Source: a virus
DNA: 30,268 nt
IMG/VR virus record: IMGVR_UViG_3300032088_001405
Location: 1-30,268 of that record
Direction: 5' to 3' (one strand)
In this document: piece by piece, positions 9,689 to 16,167 of the stretch
Position numbering within the stretch: position 1 is the first letter of the stretch
Layout: every line of letters begins with the position of its first letter
The notes under the pieces: generated by a model
Told to the model about the DNA's origin: nothing
Database searches by the model: none
What the model saw: only the letters and a program-made list of their open reading frames with translations
Program-made: the position numbers and the translations under genes

Positions 9689-10380
9689 AAATTACTCTCC
9701 TTAACAACTTGTTTCACTAATTCAACATCTCGAACTTGGCGCCGAAATCTCAAAGCCCAATGTTCAGGATTGATTACATGATAAACCATATCGAGCTGTT
9801 CATCATTAAACTTACTTAGCATATCCTTGCCTGTCTTAGAATTCAATAGTAACCACGGACTAATCTTTCCGTCCTTTATTTGCCACACTGCTCTATTAGG
9901 ACTTACATAATTAAAGTAATGATTCCATACTGAATTATTTTCAGTAGCCCATTCTACCATTGTAGTTATGCTACGTTCTAATGCAGTTTCTACATTTTCT
10001 TTTAGTATTAATTCAATTGCATACTTTTCATACATTTCATCTCTACACCAGTGATCTAATTTAACACCACTAGTAACAACATAGTCAATATACTTTTCAG
10101 GATACAACGGACGAACATTACTAATAAAGCTACCAAATTTTACAAATGCATTATAGTATTGACTTTTACAAAACTCTTCATATGTCTTTTCTTTTTTTGA
10201 ACCTGCACTAAGTTTGTAAAATCTTTGAAATGCATAGAAGCCATGACGTACACGCTTCTCATCTTTTTGTAAAGCTCTACGTTTCTTTTCACACATGTGA
10301 GCTATAAGAGTTTTTTCTCTTACGTAACTACTCCCACAGTATTCGCATTTATAAGCCTTAGTCATTAGTTGCATATTCAA
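9685..10380 (-). CDS. Zinc-finger protein of unknown function
   Basis: The 231-residue protein opens with a finger-like module YKCEYCGSSYVREKTLIAH: Cys12, Cys15, then His28 and Cys30, i.e. a C2HC variant of the C2H2 finger. A basic stretch (KKRRALQKDEKRVR) follows. The remaining 180 residues are helical and aromatic-rich with no motif I know, including two conspicuous WALRFRRQVRD and PNRAVWQIKDG segments. It looks like a nucleic-acid-binding protein. The longest frame starts at TTG 10380. ATG 10374 or ATG 10365 are alternatives, the last overlapping the upstream stop by 8 nt. It lies between the 2OG oxygenase and the APS-kinase-like gene. Confidence 0.7.
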   Translation of the reverse strand: MNMQLMTKAYKCEYCGSSYVREKTLIAHMCEKKRRALQKDEKRVRHGFYAFQRFYKLSAGSKKEKTYEEFCKSQYYNAFVKFGSFISNVRPLYPEKYIDYVVTSGVKLDHWCRDEMYEKYAIELILKENVETALERSITTMVEWATENNSVWNHYFNYVSPNRAVWQIKDGKISPWLLLNSKTGKDMLSKFNDEQLDMVYHVINPEHWALRFRRQVRDVELVKQVVKESNL

Positions 10381-11017
10381 AAGCTAAGTTTCCTGATATT
10401 GTTATTCTGTAATCTGTACTGCTATAGAAAGGTGTTACACTATGCTTTAGTTTTGCTGGAAACAGTATGCATGTCTTTGACCATTTCTTATCTGCTGGTA
10501 TTGACATTGTTGCTAGATCGCCTTTGTAATCAGCATAATGGAACTCTAATAATCCATTCATTCTCTCTACAGCATTATTGCCTGGGCCGCTTGCTTGTTC
10601 TGTTTCTATGTCATAGGGTATTTCATAAAAAATAATAAAGCTAAACACACCGGCATGATCGTGTATAGGCTGAAACTCATACCTCTCTTGAAAATTAACC
10701 CAAAGACTATCTAAACTTACTTTAAGGTTATCTCTTTGTTTCTTAGGAAATGAAGCCCGCCATACTTCTAAATGATTATATTCTGAGTCATGCTTATCAG
10801 CTAAGGCAAGCATCTTCTTTTCAATTACATTTCTACTATCAGATAATGAGTATGATTTCTTTAATTGGCCAATTAAATTATCACCATAGTTTACTGCACT
10901 ATTAAAGTCTTTCTTTATTTCTTCGACTTCTTTCTTAATAGTCATAAAGTCAAAGTCGTTAAATTTATCTACTACAATGCCGCCATTACCAAAGCCATAA
11001 AATCCGTTTTCAATCAT
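10358..11017 (-). CDS. 2-oxoglutarate/Fe(II)-dependent oxygenase
   Basis: The 219-residue protein has a C-terminal double-stranded beta-helix. The first iron-ligand motif is in PIHDHAGVFSFIIFY (117-131, His119 and Asp120/His121), a core strand GLLEFHYADY follows at 155-164, the distal ligand is His192 in FPAKLKHSVTPF, and Arg204 lies 12 residues later (DYRITISGN) to bind 2-oxoglutarate. The N-terminal 100 residues are helical. Such phage enzymes hydroxylate proteins, nucleobases or small molecules. The substrate here is unknown. The start ATG overlaps the upstream stop as ATGA. Confidence 0.75.
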   Translation of the reverse strand: MIENGFYGFGNGGIVVDKFNDFDFMTIKKEVEEIKKDFNSAVNYGDNLIGQLKKSYSLSDSRNVIEKKMLALADKHDSEYNHLEVWRASFPKKQRDNLKVSLDSLWVNFQERYEFQPIHDHAGVFSFIIFYEIPYDIETEQASGPGNNAVERMNGLLEFHYADYKGDLATMSIPADKKWSKTCILFPAKLKHSVTPFYSSTDYRITISGNLAFEYATND

Positions 11018-11478
11018 ACCTTAATACCTTTCAGCTCATGGTCTTCAATTAATTGTTTAAGTTCTTTCTTAGTGTACATACTTGCTAACATTTCAACTTC
11101 GTCTTGTTTCATGTTAGGATTTAATTGTTCAATTATTTTTACAGCAGAATTATTACTTGTCTTTTTCTTAAAGCCCTGCCAAGGATGAAATTCTTTCTTA
11201 CCTGTATTGCCGCACTGACATAGTAAGTACCACTGTAGTTTAGGATGCTTGTCTCCTAGTACTGCCCAGTTCTTGTTATAGTATTCGTTTGTCTTAAACA
11301 CAGCAAGTTCTGCTTTGTCTCTATTACCTTTAACGTTACTCATGTATCTATTAAGATTCCATAAGTCGCCTTTGATATCTTTGCGTCCTACATCTGTACA
11401 TGCATCGTATAGTTGCTTCATGCCACCATCAAGTGCTGGAATAAGTTCTTTAAATAAATCTAGTTCTTTATTTGGCAT
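11014..11478 (-). CDS. Hypothetical protein, 154 aa
   Basis: I do not recognise a function. The 154-residue helical, lysine-rich protein has WNLNRYMSNVKGNRDKAELAVF, a central HPKLQWYLLCQCGNTGKKEFHPW (two Cys, two His, Trp-rich) and a C-terminal helical pair (DEVEMLASMYTKKELKQLIE). The central block could hold a metal or bind a partner. Size and helix content would allow a replication accessory factor, but I have no motif to support that. It overlaps kdsB by 11 nt and the oxygenase by 4 nt. Confidence 0.65.
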   Translation of the reverse strand: MPNKELDLFKELIPALDGGMKQLYDACTDVGRKDIKGDLWNLNRYMSNVKGNRDKAELAVFKTNEYYNKNWAVLGDKHPKLQWYLLCQCGNTGKKEFHPWQGFKKKTSNNSAVKIIEQLNPNMKQDEVEMLASMYTKKELKQLIEDHELKGIKV

Positions 11479-12142
11479 GCCATTCCTCTATATCACTTGG
11501 TGAATTAATCTCTACTCCATTATAGTATACACTCAAACAGCCAACTTGCCAACCGTTTTTTAACCAGCGTAACTGTTCTAATTTTTCAACTTCTTCTTCA
11601 CGTTCTACGGGTAAGTTAGTATACATTTCTAATGCGTTGCGTCTGTATCCGTATACACCTAAGTGCCAATCACCATAGCCCGTCATGCCTCTACCAAACC
11701 ATAGTGCTTGGTCCCTACCACGTACCATCTTAACTGAGTTAGGATCGTTTTGTTTGTCTTCGGGCATGTGTGTAAACACTGTTGTTACAGGATAATGCTG
11801 TAAGTGCTGTAGTGCCTTTTCAATCATATCAAGTGTAACATCAGGCATGTCGCCTTGTACATTAATAAACTGATCGTACTTCTGCATGTAGTCTAGTTTG
11901 ATTGCGCCTGCACATCTTTCAGTGCCATTTGCGTAGTCTGTGTTATCTATAATAACACTTGTGTTTTGAAACACACTAGCAATACGTACATCATCAGTAA
12001 GCACGTATGTTGGTATCTTAGACGCAATACAAGCGTCATACACACGTTTTATCATGGGAACACCATCTAACATAGCTAGAGGCTTTCCGGGCAAGCGTGT
12101 GCTGTTATATCTTGCGGGTATAAGAATGGCTGACGATGTCAC
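11468..12142 (-). CDS. kdsB: CMP-Kdo synthetase (3-deoxy-manno-octulosonate cytidylyltransferase)
   Basis: KdsB activates Kdo with CTP to give CMP-Kdo, the donor for Kdo transferases. The 224-residue product shows the nucleotide-binding IPARYNSTRLPGKPL (8-22), NGTERCAG (72-79), NVQGDMP (94-100), HLGVYGYRR and EKLEQLRWLKNGW, all hallmark KdsB motifs. It is slightly shorter than E. coli KdsB (248). I place the start at GTG 12142 because a perfect AGGAGG lies 6 nt upstream. The longer in-frame TTG (12157) is itself part of that ribosome site. It overlaps kdsA by 38 nt and follows it directly, forming a two-gene CMP-Kdo unit inside the early uvsW train. Confidence 0.93.
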   Translation of the reverse strand: MTSSAILIPARYNSTRLPGKPLAMLDGVPMIKRVYDACIASKIPTYVLTDDVRIASVFQNTSVIIDNTDYANGTERCAGAIKLDYMQKYDQFINVQGDMPDVTLDMIEKALQHLQHYPVTTVFTHMPEDKQNDPNSVKMVRGRDQALWFGRGMTGYGDWHLGVYGYRRNALEMYTNLPVEREEEVEKLEQLRWLKNGWQVGCLSVYYNGVEINSPSDIEEWHAK

Positions 12143-12884
12143 GTACCACCTCCTCAAAGTTATCTAAGCGGAGCATGTTAGGACCATCGCTTGGTGCTAG
12201 ATCAGGTTCAGGATGGACTTCCAAGAAAAAAGATTGGATCCCAAGAGCAGACCCGCTACGAGCCAGCCCAGGCACGTAATCACGATTGCCACCTGAGCTA
12301 TCGCCTTGTCCTCCGGGTTTTTGGGCAGAGTGCGTACAATCGAAAACAATATCATGTTCAAAATTGTCGAGCATATACATAAGACCAGTATAGTCAACGA
12401 CAAGAGTGTTATAGCCAAAACTAGTTCCCCTTTCAGTTATCCAGACGTCTTTAGCGCCTTCACATTTACTTAGCACACCTTTCATGTCCCAGGGTGCCAT
12501 AAACTGACCTTTTTTAATATTAACAATTTTATCTGTAGCACAAGCAGCTTTGATTAAATCGGTTTGTCTACACAAGAACGCAGGAATCTGATAGACATCA
12601 ACTGCATCTTTAAATTCTCTTTCAATACGTGCAACCTGCACATAGTCATGTACATCAGTAAGTGTCTTTACACCTAGTGTTACTTTGAGTGCAAGGAAGT
12701 CTGTTAGTGTTGCTTCCATACCCATGCCACGTTTGCCCTGCATACTTGAACGGTTAGCTTTGTCGTAACTTGCTTTGAAGTAGTATTCAATGCCATACTT
12801 GTCACATACACGTTTGCACTCTTTAGCAATCTCTGCCGACTGTGCTAGTCCTTCGTGTTGACACGGTCCTGCTATAATTCTCAT
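12105..12884 (-). CDS. kdsA: Kdo-8-phosphate synthase
   Basis: KdsA condenses phosphoenolpyruvate with arabinose 5-phosphate to Kdo 8-phosphate. The 259-residue TIM-barrel enzyme shows AGPCQHE (5-11), FKASYDKANRSS (36-47), GKRGMG, TDVH (76-79), IPAFLCRQTDL (100-110), NIKKGQFMAPWDM (122-134), FDCTHSAQKPGG (181-192) and FLEVHPEPD. Cys8, His185, Glu222 and Asp233 correspond to the metal ligands of metal-dependent KdsA enzymes (Aquifex type). E. coli KdsA has Asn at the Cys position. The length is normal (259-284). It couples upstream by ATGA and downstream to kdsB. Arabinose-5-P isomerase (kdsD) and Kdo-8-P phosphatase (kdsC) are not in this window and would have to come from elsewhere in the phage or from the host. 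Confidence 0.95.
   Translation of the reverse strand: MRIIAGPCQHEGLAQSAEIAKECKRVCDKYGIEYYFKASYDKANRSSMQGKRGMGMEATLTDFLALKVTLGVKTLTDVHDYVQVARIEREFKDAVDVYQIPAFLCRQTDLIKAACATDKIVNIKKGQFMAPWDMKGVLSKCEGAKDVWITERGTSFGYNTLVVDYTGLMYMLDNFEHDIVFDCTHSAQKPGGQGDSSGGNRDYVPGLARSGSALGIQSFFLEVHPEPDLAPSDGPNMLRLDNFEEVVRDIVSHSYTRKI
12149..12154 (-). promoter_or_regulatory. Ribosome binding site that sets the kdsB start
   Basis: AGGAGG on the minus strand, 6 nt before GTG 12142, inside the kdsA coding region. It fixes the kdsB start at GTG and rules out the upstream TTG that overlaps it. Confidence 0.8.
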
Positions 12885-13138
12885 TTTGAATCCTTTACCA
12901 TATAATAGAGATTTACTAGTTTATCCATTTGTTTTGCTAACGTAGGATTAGTTGCTGCCACTTCGCACAAGTTATTCCACTCGCCGTAGTCAAGTAATTT
13001 GCCTTGCTCTCTTGCAACAGCACCCGGATCACCGCCTACAATCCAACGTGGTATCTCAGGCTTGTCAGCATAACGAGCGAACACAACACCGTTGGCCCGC
13101 TCGTATATTAAAGTTTCATTTGGGATTAATTTTCCCAA
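12881..13138 (-). CDS. Conserved T4-like hypothetical protein, 85 aa
   Basis: A protein of this type (LIPNETLIYERANGVVFAR, then IPRWIVGGD, ending in a helical segment with LVNLYYMVKD) is, as far as I recall, widespread in marine T4-like phages without an assigned function. The first half looks like a small beta sheet and the second is helical. The start is TTG 13138, immediately after the yhhQ stop. Its own stop overlaps the kdsA ATG as ATGA. Confidence 0.7.
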   Translation of the reverse strand: MGKLIPNETLIYERANGVVFARYADKPEIPRWIVGGDPGAVAREQGKLLDYGEWNNLCEVAATNPTLAKQMDKLVNLYYMVKDSK

Positions 13139-13819
13139 CTACTCAGCTTTCTTCTTCTTAGCTGGTGCTTTCTTCTTAGCTGGTGCTTTCTTCTTTGCTG
13201 CCGGCTTTGGTGCTTCTACTGGAGCATCAATTAATCTACCATTTAGGTAACGTAGTAATACACCGTATGCTGGTAGGAAGATAATAAGTCCTACTGCAAT
13301 CTTAATCACAACTTGTGATCCTGCAATCTCCATCCAGTTAGCAGCCATATACTCATCTGCTGAGTTGTTAAACGCTACTGCAAAGAATGTGTATGTGTCA
13401 ATGATGTTTGCAACAACTGTTGACAATGCCGGTGCTAACCACCACATACTCATGCGCTCTCTAATGTATTGGAACACATACACGTCAAGCATTGTGCCTA
13501 CGGCGTATGCAGTTGCTGATGCAAAACCAATACGCATTGCTACTGACTGTGGAGCACCTTCAGCAAGTACTACTGCAATTGATCCAATAATAGCAAGTGG
13601 ATATGCCGCCGCAATAGTTGCTCTAGCAATGTTCTTGCCTAGCATTCTAACAGTTAAGTCAGTTGCTAATACCACAAGCGGGAATGTAAACGCCGCCCAT
13701 GTTAATTTAATGCCTGCAATTTCTACCGGAATAGAAACTAAAGCATTTGAAATAGTAATCACTACAACGTGCAGAAGTGCAAGTTTAAGCATCATACCTT
13801 TATCAATGTTACTAAACAT
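13139..13819 (-). CDS. yhhQ: YhhQ-family queuosine precursor transporter with lysine-rich tail
   Basis: The 226-residue membrane protein has about six hydrophobic segments. It closely follows E. coli YhhQ, which imports the queuosine precursors preQ0/preQ1: FPLVVLATDLTVRMLGKNIAR (46-66), ILDV-like TMLDVYVF (109-116), WWLAPALSTVVANIIDTY (126-143), NWMEIAG, and FLPAYGVLLRYL near the end of the membrane part. A phage copy could raise preQ supply for tRNA queuosine or 7-deazaguanine DNA modification, but no other que/dpd gene is in the window. The last 22 residues are an added Lys/Ala/Pro tail (PAAKKKAPAKKKAPAKKKK) not found in E. coli YhhQ. ATG 13819 has AAGGA upstream. Confidence 0.9.
   Translation of the reverse strand: MFSNIDKGMMLKLALLHVVVITISNALVSIPVEIAGIKLTWAAFTFPLVVLATDLTVRMLGKNIARATIAAAYPLAIIGSIAVVLAEGAPQSVAMRIGFASATAYAVGTMLDVYVFQYIRERMSMWWLAPALSTVVANIIDTYTFFAVAFNNSADEYMAANWMEIAGSQVVIKIAVGLIIFLPAYGVLLRYLNGRLIDAPVEAPKPAAKKKAPAKKKAPAKKKKAE
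13160..13195. repeat. Perfect 18-bp tandem duplication in the yhhQ tail
   Basis: Two identical copies of AGCTGGTGCTTTCTTCTT lie at 13160-13177 and 13178-13195, with a partial third nearby. They encode the repeated KKKAPA units of the YhhQ tail on the minus strand. Slippage could easily change the copy number. Confidence 0.9.
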
Positions 13820-14200: not shown

Positions 14201-14707
14201 TTAGAGTAATAGTGCGTATTCAATAATTTCACACTGTCTACTAATGTCTTTAACAAAAAATGCACACAGCGGATTTTCTCCATCTGTAATCGGTACACTT
14301 AACAGTTGTCCATTCTTCATCTTTGGAAAGTACCATTTTACATCTGTGTAAAAATTTGTTATCTTTATTTCTGCAAAATCTGTTTTGTAGCTTGATAATG
14401 GATTAAACAAAAACGCTTCAAATCCTCTATCATTCAAACTTGTAAGCGGAAGTATTTCTAAATCATTTCCGCTTTCACTGCAACCAACAGCTATATTCCA
14501 ATCTACAGGCATAGTAATTTCTTTACCGCCTATTTCTAATACCATTGCCGGAGCACTAAATGATTCTAAGAATATTAAAGGAACAAAGAAAAAATCAGGA
14601 TTCTTTGGATCGCTATTATCTAATACACTAAATCTTACATCGTCATCTATCTGCTCTGGCAAATCATTTAATAAAAAACACTCGTTTTCTAATGTTAATA
14701 TTCTCAT
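14201..14707 (-). CDS. Hypothetical protein downstream of uvsW
   Basis: Unknown soluble protein of about 168 residues, acidic and rich in Phe/Pro/Leu, probably beta-sheet (DFFFVPLIFLESFSAPAM; WYFPKMKNGQLLSVPI). No catalytic motif is visible. I prefer ATG 14707, which overlaps the uvsW stop as ATGA, over the in-frame TTG two codons earlier. It is likely translationally coupled to uvsW. It may be an accessory of recombination or an unrelated conserved phage gene. Confidence 0.65.
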   Translation of the reverse strand: MRILTLENECFLLNDLPEQIDDDVRFSVLDNSDPKNPDFFFVPLIFLESFSAPAMVLEIGGKEITMPVDWNIAVGCSESGNDLEILPLTSLNDRGFEAFLFNPLSSYKTDFAEIKITNFYTDVKWYFPKMKNGQLLSVPITDGENPLCAFFVKDISRQCEIIEYALLL

Positions 14708-16167
14708 TGCCAATCTACCTTTTCTATTGTGAACGGGTATTCTGCTTCCTTATAAAACTTTTTACGTTGGGTAAGGTGCCGCTTCGCATACTTACACGTT
14801 GATGTAAGATCCCATATTTGCACGAAGTCTTTGTCCTTTGCCTTTCTTACGCCTCTACCGATAGATTGGATAACTCTTACAAAACTCTTTCCAGGCTCAA
14901 TAAGAACCAAGTTAAAGATACGAGGAATGTTAAGACCCACAGCAGCAACTCCATAGGTTGCGATAATAACCTCATTAGTTCCTTCACGTATAGTGTCATA
15001 TGTTTCTTTCCTGTCTTTTACTTTTACACTTCCGCTAACAAAAGTGCTATTAGGTATTAGTTCTGCTAACATTTCTCCTGCGGAGATTCTGTCTACAAGT
15101 ATTAGTGTGTTGCCTGAGTCTTTTATTGTGTTTAATAATTTGCCTATATATTCTACTCGATTCTTGTTTGTTACAAGATATTTTAATTCTTCTTGGTAGC
15201 CGCTGTGTGCCACTGTATCAATTAGTTGTACTACATTAACATGACATGATGATAGCACGCCTTTGTCTTGTAATTCTTTTGCTGAGATGTTACCAATCAC
15301 AGGACCAAGACTAGCATGAATACTTTCAAACTCAAACTTCTCTTTAGGTACTGTACCAGTTAGTCCCCAGCGTATTGGAGCGTTACGTAGGTTGCGAGTG
15401 AGCAGGTTCTTAAGAACTTCTGCTTTGGCTTGGTGTACTTCGTCAACGATAATAGTGCTTACACCCTCTAGGAACTCTGCCAGACTTAATACTGCGCTGC
15501 CGTCCTTGTGCTTCTTGTCGAGTATATTCAAACTCTGCCAAGTGCAAATAGTGTGAGTCTTACCTAATTGTTTTCGATCTCCAAAGTATACCCCTACGTC
15601 GAGCCCACAGTTAATATAGTCTTCTTCTGTTTGTTCTACTAACGACTTGTTAGGAACAATCACAAGTGACCTACCGTAGGGCTCAGCTATATGTGACAGG
15701 GTTGCTGTCGTAATTGTTTTACCTGCACCAGTAGCAATCTGTTGCAAGCTCTGTGGATGAGCAATAAAGTTATTAATTGCATCAACTTGATAGTCACGCA
15801 GAATTATTTCTTCACCTTCTGCAGGATGTCCTTGTGGCCATACAACGCCTTGGTCTGCCCAATAGCGTTCTGTAACTGGCATAAACTTTAAGTCAATAGG
15901 ATGACGTCTATCTTCAATGTCTACTATTTCAACATTATTCTTTTGTAACACTTGACTAACAGTGTCAAGATGATTGACATAGCCAGTACCACCAATACCA
16001 AAGAAAGCAACCTTTCCATCCCACCGACCAAGTTTATATTGTGGCATGTATCTTGCGTAAGGCACTTCAAACTTGAGAGCGTTCGCGAGCTTCCTTCGTA
16101 CGTCAACCTCTAGTCCTTCTAGTTTAATGTTTACTTCGTCTTCAATTATTAATTTACATGTAGCCAT
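14704..16167 (-). CDS. uvsW: UvsW-type RNA-DNA/DNA helicase
   Basis: This SF2 helicase resolves branched recombination intermediates and unwinds R-loops, switching T4-like phages from origin-dependent to recombination-dependent replication. The 487-residue product has an N-terminal DNA-binding region (1-110), the Q-motif-like LRDYQVDAI (123-131), Walker A ATGAGKT (145-151), DEVH (242-245), motif III LTGT (269-272), a C-terminal RecA domain with GSVKVKDR, ATYGVAAVGLNIP (403-415) and motif VI QSIGRGVRK (434-442). T4 UvsW has about 503 residues. It overlaps the upstream 401-aa gene by 14 nt and so shares its early promoter. Confidence 0.95.
   Translation of the reverse strand: MATCKLIIEDEVNIKLEGLEVDVRRKLANALKFEVPYARYMPQYKLGRWDGKVAFFGIGGTGYVNHLDTVSQVLQKNNVEIVDIEDRRHPIDLKFMPVTERYWADQGVVWPQGHPAEGEEIILRDYQVDAINNFIAHPQSLQQIATGAGKTITTATLSHIAEPYGRSLVIVPNKSLVEQTEEDYINCGLDVGVYFGDRKQLGKTHTICTWQSLNILDKKHKDGSAVLSLAEFLEGVSTIIVDEVHQAKAEVLKNLLTRNLRNAPIRWGLTGTVPKEKFEFESIHASLGPVIGNISAKELQDKGVLSSCHVNVVQLIDTVAHSGYQEELKYLVTNKNRVEYIGKLLNTIKDSGNTLILVDRISAGEMLAELIPNSTFVSGSVKVKDRKETYDTIREGTNEVIIATYGVAAVGLNIPRIFNLVLIEPGKSFVRVIQSIGRGVRKAKDKDFVQIWDLTSTCKYAKRHLTQRKKFYKEAEYPFTIEKVDWQ

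Follow-up and report, generated by a model that had tools for sequence, protein, structure and literature searches.

The YhhQ transporter encoded in a 30,268-base IMG/VR virus record of an uncultured marine phage, hereafter the window, ends in a positively charged tail that resembles those of histone H1-like proteins. Cationic tails of this kind are present and conserved in viral relatives, are under selection and have been exchanged between lineages; within the loci read they are restricted to YhhQ and to the gene slot beside it, where a separate-gene form is also found. From these sequences we infer, with a probability of about one half, that the tail is an exchangeable nucleic-acid-binding module at the inner membrane, for which YhhQ would serve as the anchor and tether. 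The features of the window that bear on this proposal are the following:

13139..13819, minus strand: YhhQ/QPTR-family queuosine-precursor transporter gene (226 aa; stop codon 13139-13141 included)
13226..13819, minus strand: membrane domain, residues 1-198 (AlphaFold)
13142..13225, minus strand: predicted cytoplasmic Lys/Ala/Pro-rich tail, residues 199-226 (coil in the model, loop charges, 120 relatives)
13152..13200, minus strand: 18-bp tandem repeat coding for KKKAPA units (Tandem Repeats Finder, 2.7 copies, 96% match)
12881..13138, minus strand: next gene, a conserved phage protein of 85 aa (TTG start abutting the YhhQ stop)

An earlier note on this DNA had placed a YhhQ-type transporter at exactly these coordinates, leaving the strand unstated, and this assignment is borne out by matches to the Pfam profile PF02592 Vut_1 (E 1.3e-24, 87.7 bits; cut-off 27.2) and to NCBIfam TIGR00697 (114.6 bits, above the cut-off of 50.95). 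The NF008406 profile, 'preQ0/preQ1 transporter', was matched at E 4e-57 and 193.3 bits, below its equivalog cut-off of 252, and by these scores the protein is a divergent family member that is not classed as an equivalog. It is thus a phage-borne transporter of the preQ0/preQ1 type, with transport as its predicted activity; a sequence search for a solved structure found none. Phage copies of YhhQ are already known (PMC6884629), and cultured phages that carry one include Pantoea phage Vid5, Providencia phage PSTCR7 and Vibrio phage 2.275.O. The window itself carries T4-type genes (UvsX-, UvsW- and gp32-like proteins), and its UvsW is nearest to those of the jumbo phages Phosso and Atu_ph07.

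In the AlphaFold model of the transporter (mean pLDDT 87.6, from a 40-sequence alignment), six helices are predicted at residues 7-28, 47-60, 62-86, 91-122, 128-150 and 156-198, and the roughly 28 residues that remain past the end of helix 6 are coil. The membrane domain displays weak Foldseek similarity to ECF S-components. The protein ends in a Lys/Ala/Pro stretch of 23 residues, PKPAAKKKAPAKKKAPAKKKKAE, for which the earlier note had given about 22 residues of KKKAPA repeats; the 18-bp tandem duplication described there was independently recovered by Tandem Repeats Finder. When the tail was compared to Pfam, no family was matched, the only hit being DUF7302 at E 0.37. Positive charges are found in loops 2 and 4 and at the C-terminus of the window protein, with none in loops 3 and 5, and the C-terminus of E. 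coli YhhQ is experimentally cytoplasmic (PMC5372724). The tail of the six-helix protein is therefore predicted to lie on the cytoplasmic side, and not in the periplasm, the placement that the earlier note had named as speaking against its reading.

To the window protein were added relatives from five viral scans, yielding 120 distinct viral YhhQ sequences (window included), and from one bacterial scan, yielding 80 loci. The full-length viral query was dominated by the common KKKAPAKK pattern, and the viral scan was redone without the tail. Cationic tails of three types, the short basic motifs being named by resemblance, are found in 26 of the 120 viral sequences: H1-like Lys/Ala/Pro tails in 19, counting the window; AT-hook-like RGRK tails in five, for example LVLKDEVKPKRGRKPKASK or KRGRKPK; and a Rho_N/SAP-like domain in two (L022 and L070). 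Lys-rich and AT-hook-like tails average a net charge of +7 to +8, compared to +1.6 for tail-less ends. A tail is absent from 87 of the 120, indicating that it is optional. The remaining seven carry another short, less charged tail of the SFKNAGSDLKK type (..VQ.SFKNAG.DLKK in L007, L021, L023, L024, L042, L044 and L046), which occupies separate places in the tree. A phage-type YhhQ that is 82% identical lies on a contig (L137) which was binned into a Pelagibacter MAG but is probably from a phage.

All five nearest relatives, L076-L080, possess a Lys-rich tail, and their tail sequences differ from one another. The scan gave them protein identities of 96-98%, and over the membrane domain their DNA identity is 90-98%. 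The comparison of homologues that the earlier note proposed thus rules out recent slippage in one genome as the source of the tail. No cationic nucleic-acid-binding-type tail was found in the 80 bacterial YhhQ (mostly from Pelagibacter, Psychrobacter and Pasteurellaceae) or in the YhhQ of phages Vid5, PSTCR7 and 2.275.O. In 25 other gene families at the same loci, none of the 868 sequences has a cationic C-terminal extension, a significant difference from YhhQ (p ~1e-25, Fisher's exact test). Likewise, in 200 kb of a relative's record (G001) the KKKAPA tail is exclusive to YhhQ among 183 ORFs. A phage-wide habit of placing Lys tails on many proteins is ruled out within the loci read, where the exceptions are a few separate small Lys-rich proteins. 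The open-licence literature yielded no report of such YhhQ tails.

Selection on the tails was estimated from pN/pS with Nei-Gojobori sites, pooling seven tail pairs. The pooled ratio is 0.22 for the tails and 0.09 for the membrane domain (p 1e-26), and tails of equal length give 0.15; the tails evolve faster than the membrane domain, yet are under clear purifying selection. In one pair (L078 and L064), the membrane domains are only ~50% identical while the tails share LVLKDEV..KPKAKKKAPAKKT.KKKA, such that the tail protein is more conserved than the membrane domain (p 0.0002), with synonymous sites saturated. The tails have also been exchanged between lineages. Between the window and L068, DNA identity is 78% in the body and 93% in the tail, and synonymous differences number 4 of 25 in the tail versus 75 of 137 in the body (p 0.0004), a sign of recent tail exchange; the bodies of L068 and L111 are 97.6% identical at the DNA level, with a tail in one and none in the other. 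On a tree that was built quickly and has many weak branches, parsimony requires at least 16 gains or losses, a count that depends on that tree; for the Lys-rich class at least four changes are forced by well-supported branches.

The slot that follows YhhQ is occupied in many of these phages by a conserved protein of 85-92 aa (GKLIPNE.LIYER..GVV.AR), often TTG-started, as in the window. In some tail-less relatives, a separate Lys-rich gene is found there instead of the 85-aa gene: eight tail-less sequences, representing five lineages by our reading, carry a small Lys-rich gene 11-67 nt past the YhhQ stop. One of these lies beside L400:

G031:86687-87046: small protein adjacent to L400

This protein of 119 aa combines an N-terminal hydrophobic helix (KD 2.0) with a KKAPAKK-type tail (...KKAPAKKTTAAKKTAAKK; ...KKAPAKKTTAAKKTAAKKTAAKK) and matches HC2 below threshold (E 0.026). 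The genes adjacent to L002/L003/L094/L095, L018 and L047 are H1-like. A membrane anchor is supported for the L400 protein and suggestive for those of L002 and L018; the N-termini of the other adjacent small proteins are no more amphipathic than other phage ORFs, and an amphipathic anchor was rejected as a general trait of the small genes, being clear for L002 and L018 only. Adjacent small genes were observed at none of the 26 tail-bearing loci and at eight of the 94 others, an exclusion that is not significant (p 0.2). No obvious separate substitute was found in six long tail-less records (G003, G004, G005, G010, G012 and G032); as the records are fragments, such absences carry little weight.

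The Rho_N/SAP-like domain occurs in both a fused and a separate form. The L022 tail scores 27.4 bits against Pfam Rho_N, above the curated gathering cut-off of 24.9, and the L070 tail falls slightly below it at 23.9 bits. The modelled tail domain adopts a helix-extension-helix fold (pLDDT ~90); its superposition with Rho, T4 endonuclease VII and SAP domains gives 0.9-1.9 A, with Foldseek E above 0.5. In the protein encoded next to L045, a Lys-rich linker is joined to a SAP-like domain, and this domain and the fused L022 tail are homologues (E 2e-9, 47% identity). The homologues of the L045 protein, L514-L529, which are proteins of 80-100 aa with a W/L-rich N-terminus, a Lys/Thr/Ser-rich linker and a SAP/Rho_N-like domain ('KANASLTKAE'), occur away from YhhQ in other phages, and the module therefore need not depend on transport.

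The records of relatives often contain genes for GTP cyclohydrolase I and a QueE-like radical SAM protein, in many cases near YhhQ; examples are as follows:

L253:5823-6536 and 10004-10903: GTP cyclohydrolase I/QueE-like genes
L254:13934-14617 and 14617-15510: GTP cyclohydrolase I/QueE-like genes

FolE was found in 13 of 22 phage records, counting the Vid5 control, and QueE in 10 of 27. Nine records have both (G001, G003-G005, G009, G012, G015, G016 and G018), and G032 has QueE. Neither TGT nor DpdA was found in up to 30 phage records, QueD was not found in phage records, and a search for QueC gave one marginal PP-loop match. FolE and QueE with no QueD, TGT or DpdA detected make up what is, as judged from these searches, an incomplete 7-deazaguanine pathway, and a connection with modification of the phage DNA by way of TGT or DpdA was set aside. 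In tail-less relatives a gene with a phosphoribosyltransferase domain adjoins YhhQ or FolE (L253:8234-8698, L254:12919-13437), and its product might act on a deazaguanine base. In the window, YhhQ is followed by Kdo pathway genes (11468-12157 and 12105-12884; a KdsB-like cytidylyltransferase and a KdsA-like synthase), with many glycosyltransferase-like genes nearby; a neighbour in L068 (6701-7228) encodes a methyltransferase-domain protein.

We considered whether the tail could serve the transporter itself. It might bring tRNA, or host TGT together with tRNA, to the importer, and preQ0 or preQ1 would then be inserted into nucleic acid close to where it enters. The substrate of the transporter does end up in tRNA or DNA, fusions of bTGT to QPTR have been reported in bacteria (PMC11130926), and many of the phage records hold FolE and QueE. 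However, neither TGT nor DpdA turned up in them, two tailed records of 110-115 kb (G007 and G008) and the 230-kb record G002 are without FolE and QueE, and a related module exists in other phages as separate genes unlinked to YhhQ, all of which makes such coupling quite unlikely. A general electrostatic role, in which the tail binds acidic phospholipids or proteins, provides a positive-inside signal for the C-terminus or protects against proteolysis, fits the way Lys-rich and AT-hook-like tails exceed tail-less ends in charge and the start of the tail directly after a membrane helix. The earlier note had offered acidic partners and a topology signal as options, and we consider them unlikely: charge alone needs neither a folded Rho_N/SAP-like domain nor a conserved RGRK motif, the tail-less relatives share the membrane domain and so do not require a tail for their topology, and the Lys-rich module is also found on proteins other than YhhQ.

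A neutral, low-complexity extension, arising at the end of the gene through recombination and repeat slippage and retained without function, would account for the 18-bp repeat varying in copy number among relatives (one to four KKKAPA-type units), for the frequent absence of tails and for the many Lys codons expected of AT-rich coding. Against it stand the purifying selection on amino acids, with pN/pS well below one in both the pooled (0.22) and equal-length (0.15) comparisons, the lack of such tails in all 868 members of neighbouring families, and the retention of a Lys-rich tail in every close relative despite sequence turnover; this explanation is largely refuted and very improbable. A ribosome-binding signal for the abutting gene, formed by the purine-rich 3' end, was likewise judged unlikely, since selection acts on the amino acids, synonymous sites vary, and the next genes of tail-less relatives are also close.

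We therefore return to a nucleic-acid tether, which the earlier note had suggested for DNA or RNA and which has since gained support from the AT-hook-like and Rho_N tails and from the separate Lys-rich genes, one of them with a predicted membrane helix. The six-helix transporter would be the membrane anchor, and the disordered H1-like tail would bind DNA or RNA electrostatically, without sequence specificity. As one version of an exchangeable module found in marine tailed phages, the tail would keep nucleic acid at the inner membrane; in other phages an AT-hook-like or Rho_N/SAP-like YhhQ tail would perform the same job, and elsewhere it would fall to a small separate protein encoded directly downstream, for which a membrane anchor is well supported in one case. 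We lean slightly towards phage or host DNA over tRNA as the target, since segments of the AT-hook-like and SAP types usually bind DNA and since the module also occurs without the transporter; tRNA is a possible target given that it is where the transporter's substrate is used and that TGT-QPTR fusions exist (PMC11130926).

More broadly, and only tentatively, these proteins might represent a putative class of modular membrane-tethered nucleic-acid binders in marine tailed phages, in which an H1-, AT-hook- or SAP/Rho_N-like binder is freely exchanged. The anchor in such a class could possibly be a metabolic transporter, as with YhhQ, or else a small peptide with a helix, and the task of the class would be to organise phage or host DNA, or tRNA, at the inner membrane during infection. 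Phage YhhQ proteins have hitherto been known only as precursor importers. The recurrence of different selected, binding-type segments at the same cytoplasmic end, with a similar module encoded beside YhhQ in some cases, predicts a second activity, the holding of nucleic acid at the membrane, and suggests that a transporter has been reused as an anchor. The positioning of DNA or tRNA in the cell by phages could be approached experimentally from here.

H1-like Lys/Ala/Pro tails are borne by soluble nucleoid proteins such as Chlamydia HC2 and actinobacterial HU. The window tail is like these in composition and in the style of its repeats, but it hangs from a six-helix transporter and matches no H1 or HC2 profile. 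The likeness to Rho_N, SAP and HeH domains (PF07498, PF02037, PF12949) belongs to the L022 and L070 tails and to the separate L045 and L514-L529 proteins, the domain being absent from the window's own tail. With YhhQ/QPTR (COG1738, PF02592), the window protein shares the sequence family, the six helices and a predicted cytoplasmic C-terminus; the bacterial and cultured-phage members inspected end ~5-30 residues past their final helix and have no tail of a Lys-rich or nucleic-acid-binding type. The TGT-QPTR fusions of bacteria (PMC11130926) likewise join a transporter to a partner that acts on nucleic acid, but in the phages no enzyme is involved: the partner is a short segment, disordered or SAP-like, that differs from one close relative to the next. 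Finally, p16.7 of phage phi29 is described as an ssDNA-binding integral membrane protein by which replication of the phage DNA is organised at the membrane (PMC4974454, citing Serna-Rico 2003). Its membrane anchor and cytoplasmic nucleic-acid-binding part recur as a layout, and by analogy of layout only, in the gene adjacent to L400, whereas in the window the anchor would be a transporter.
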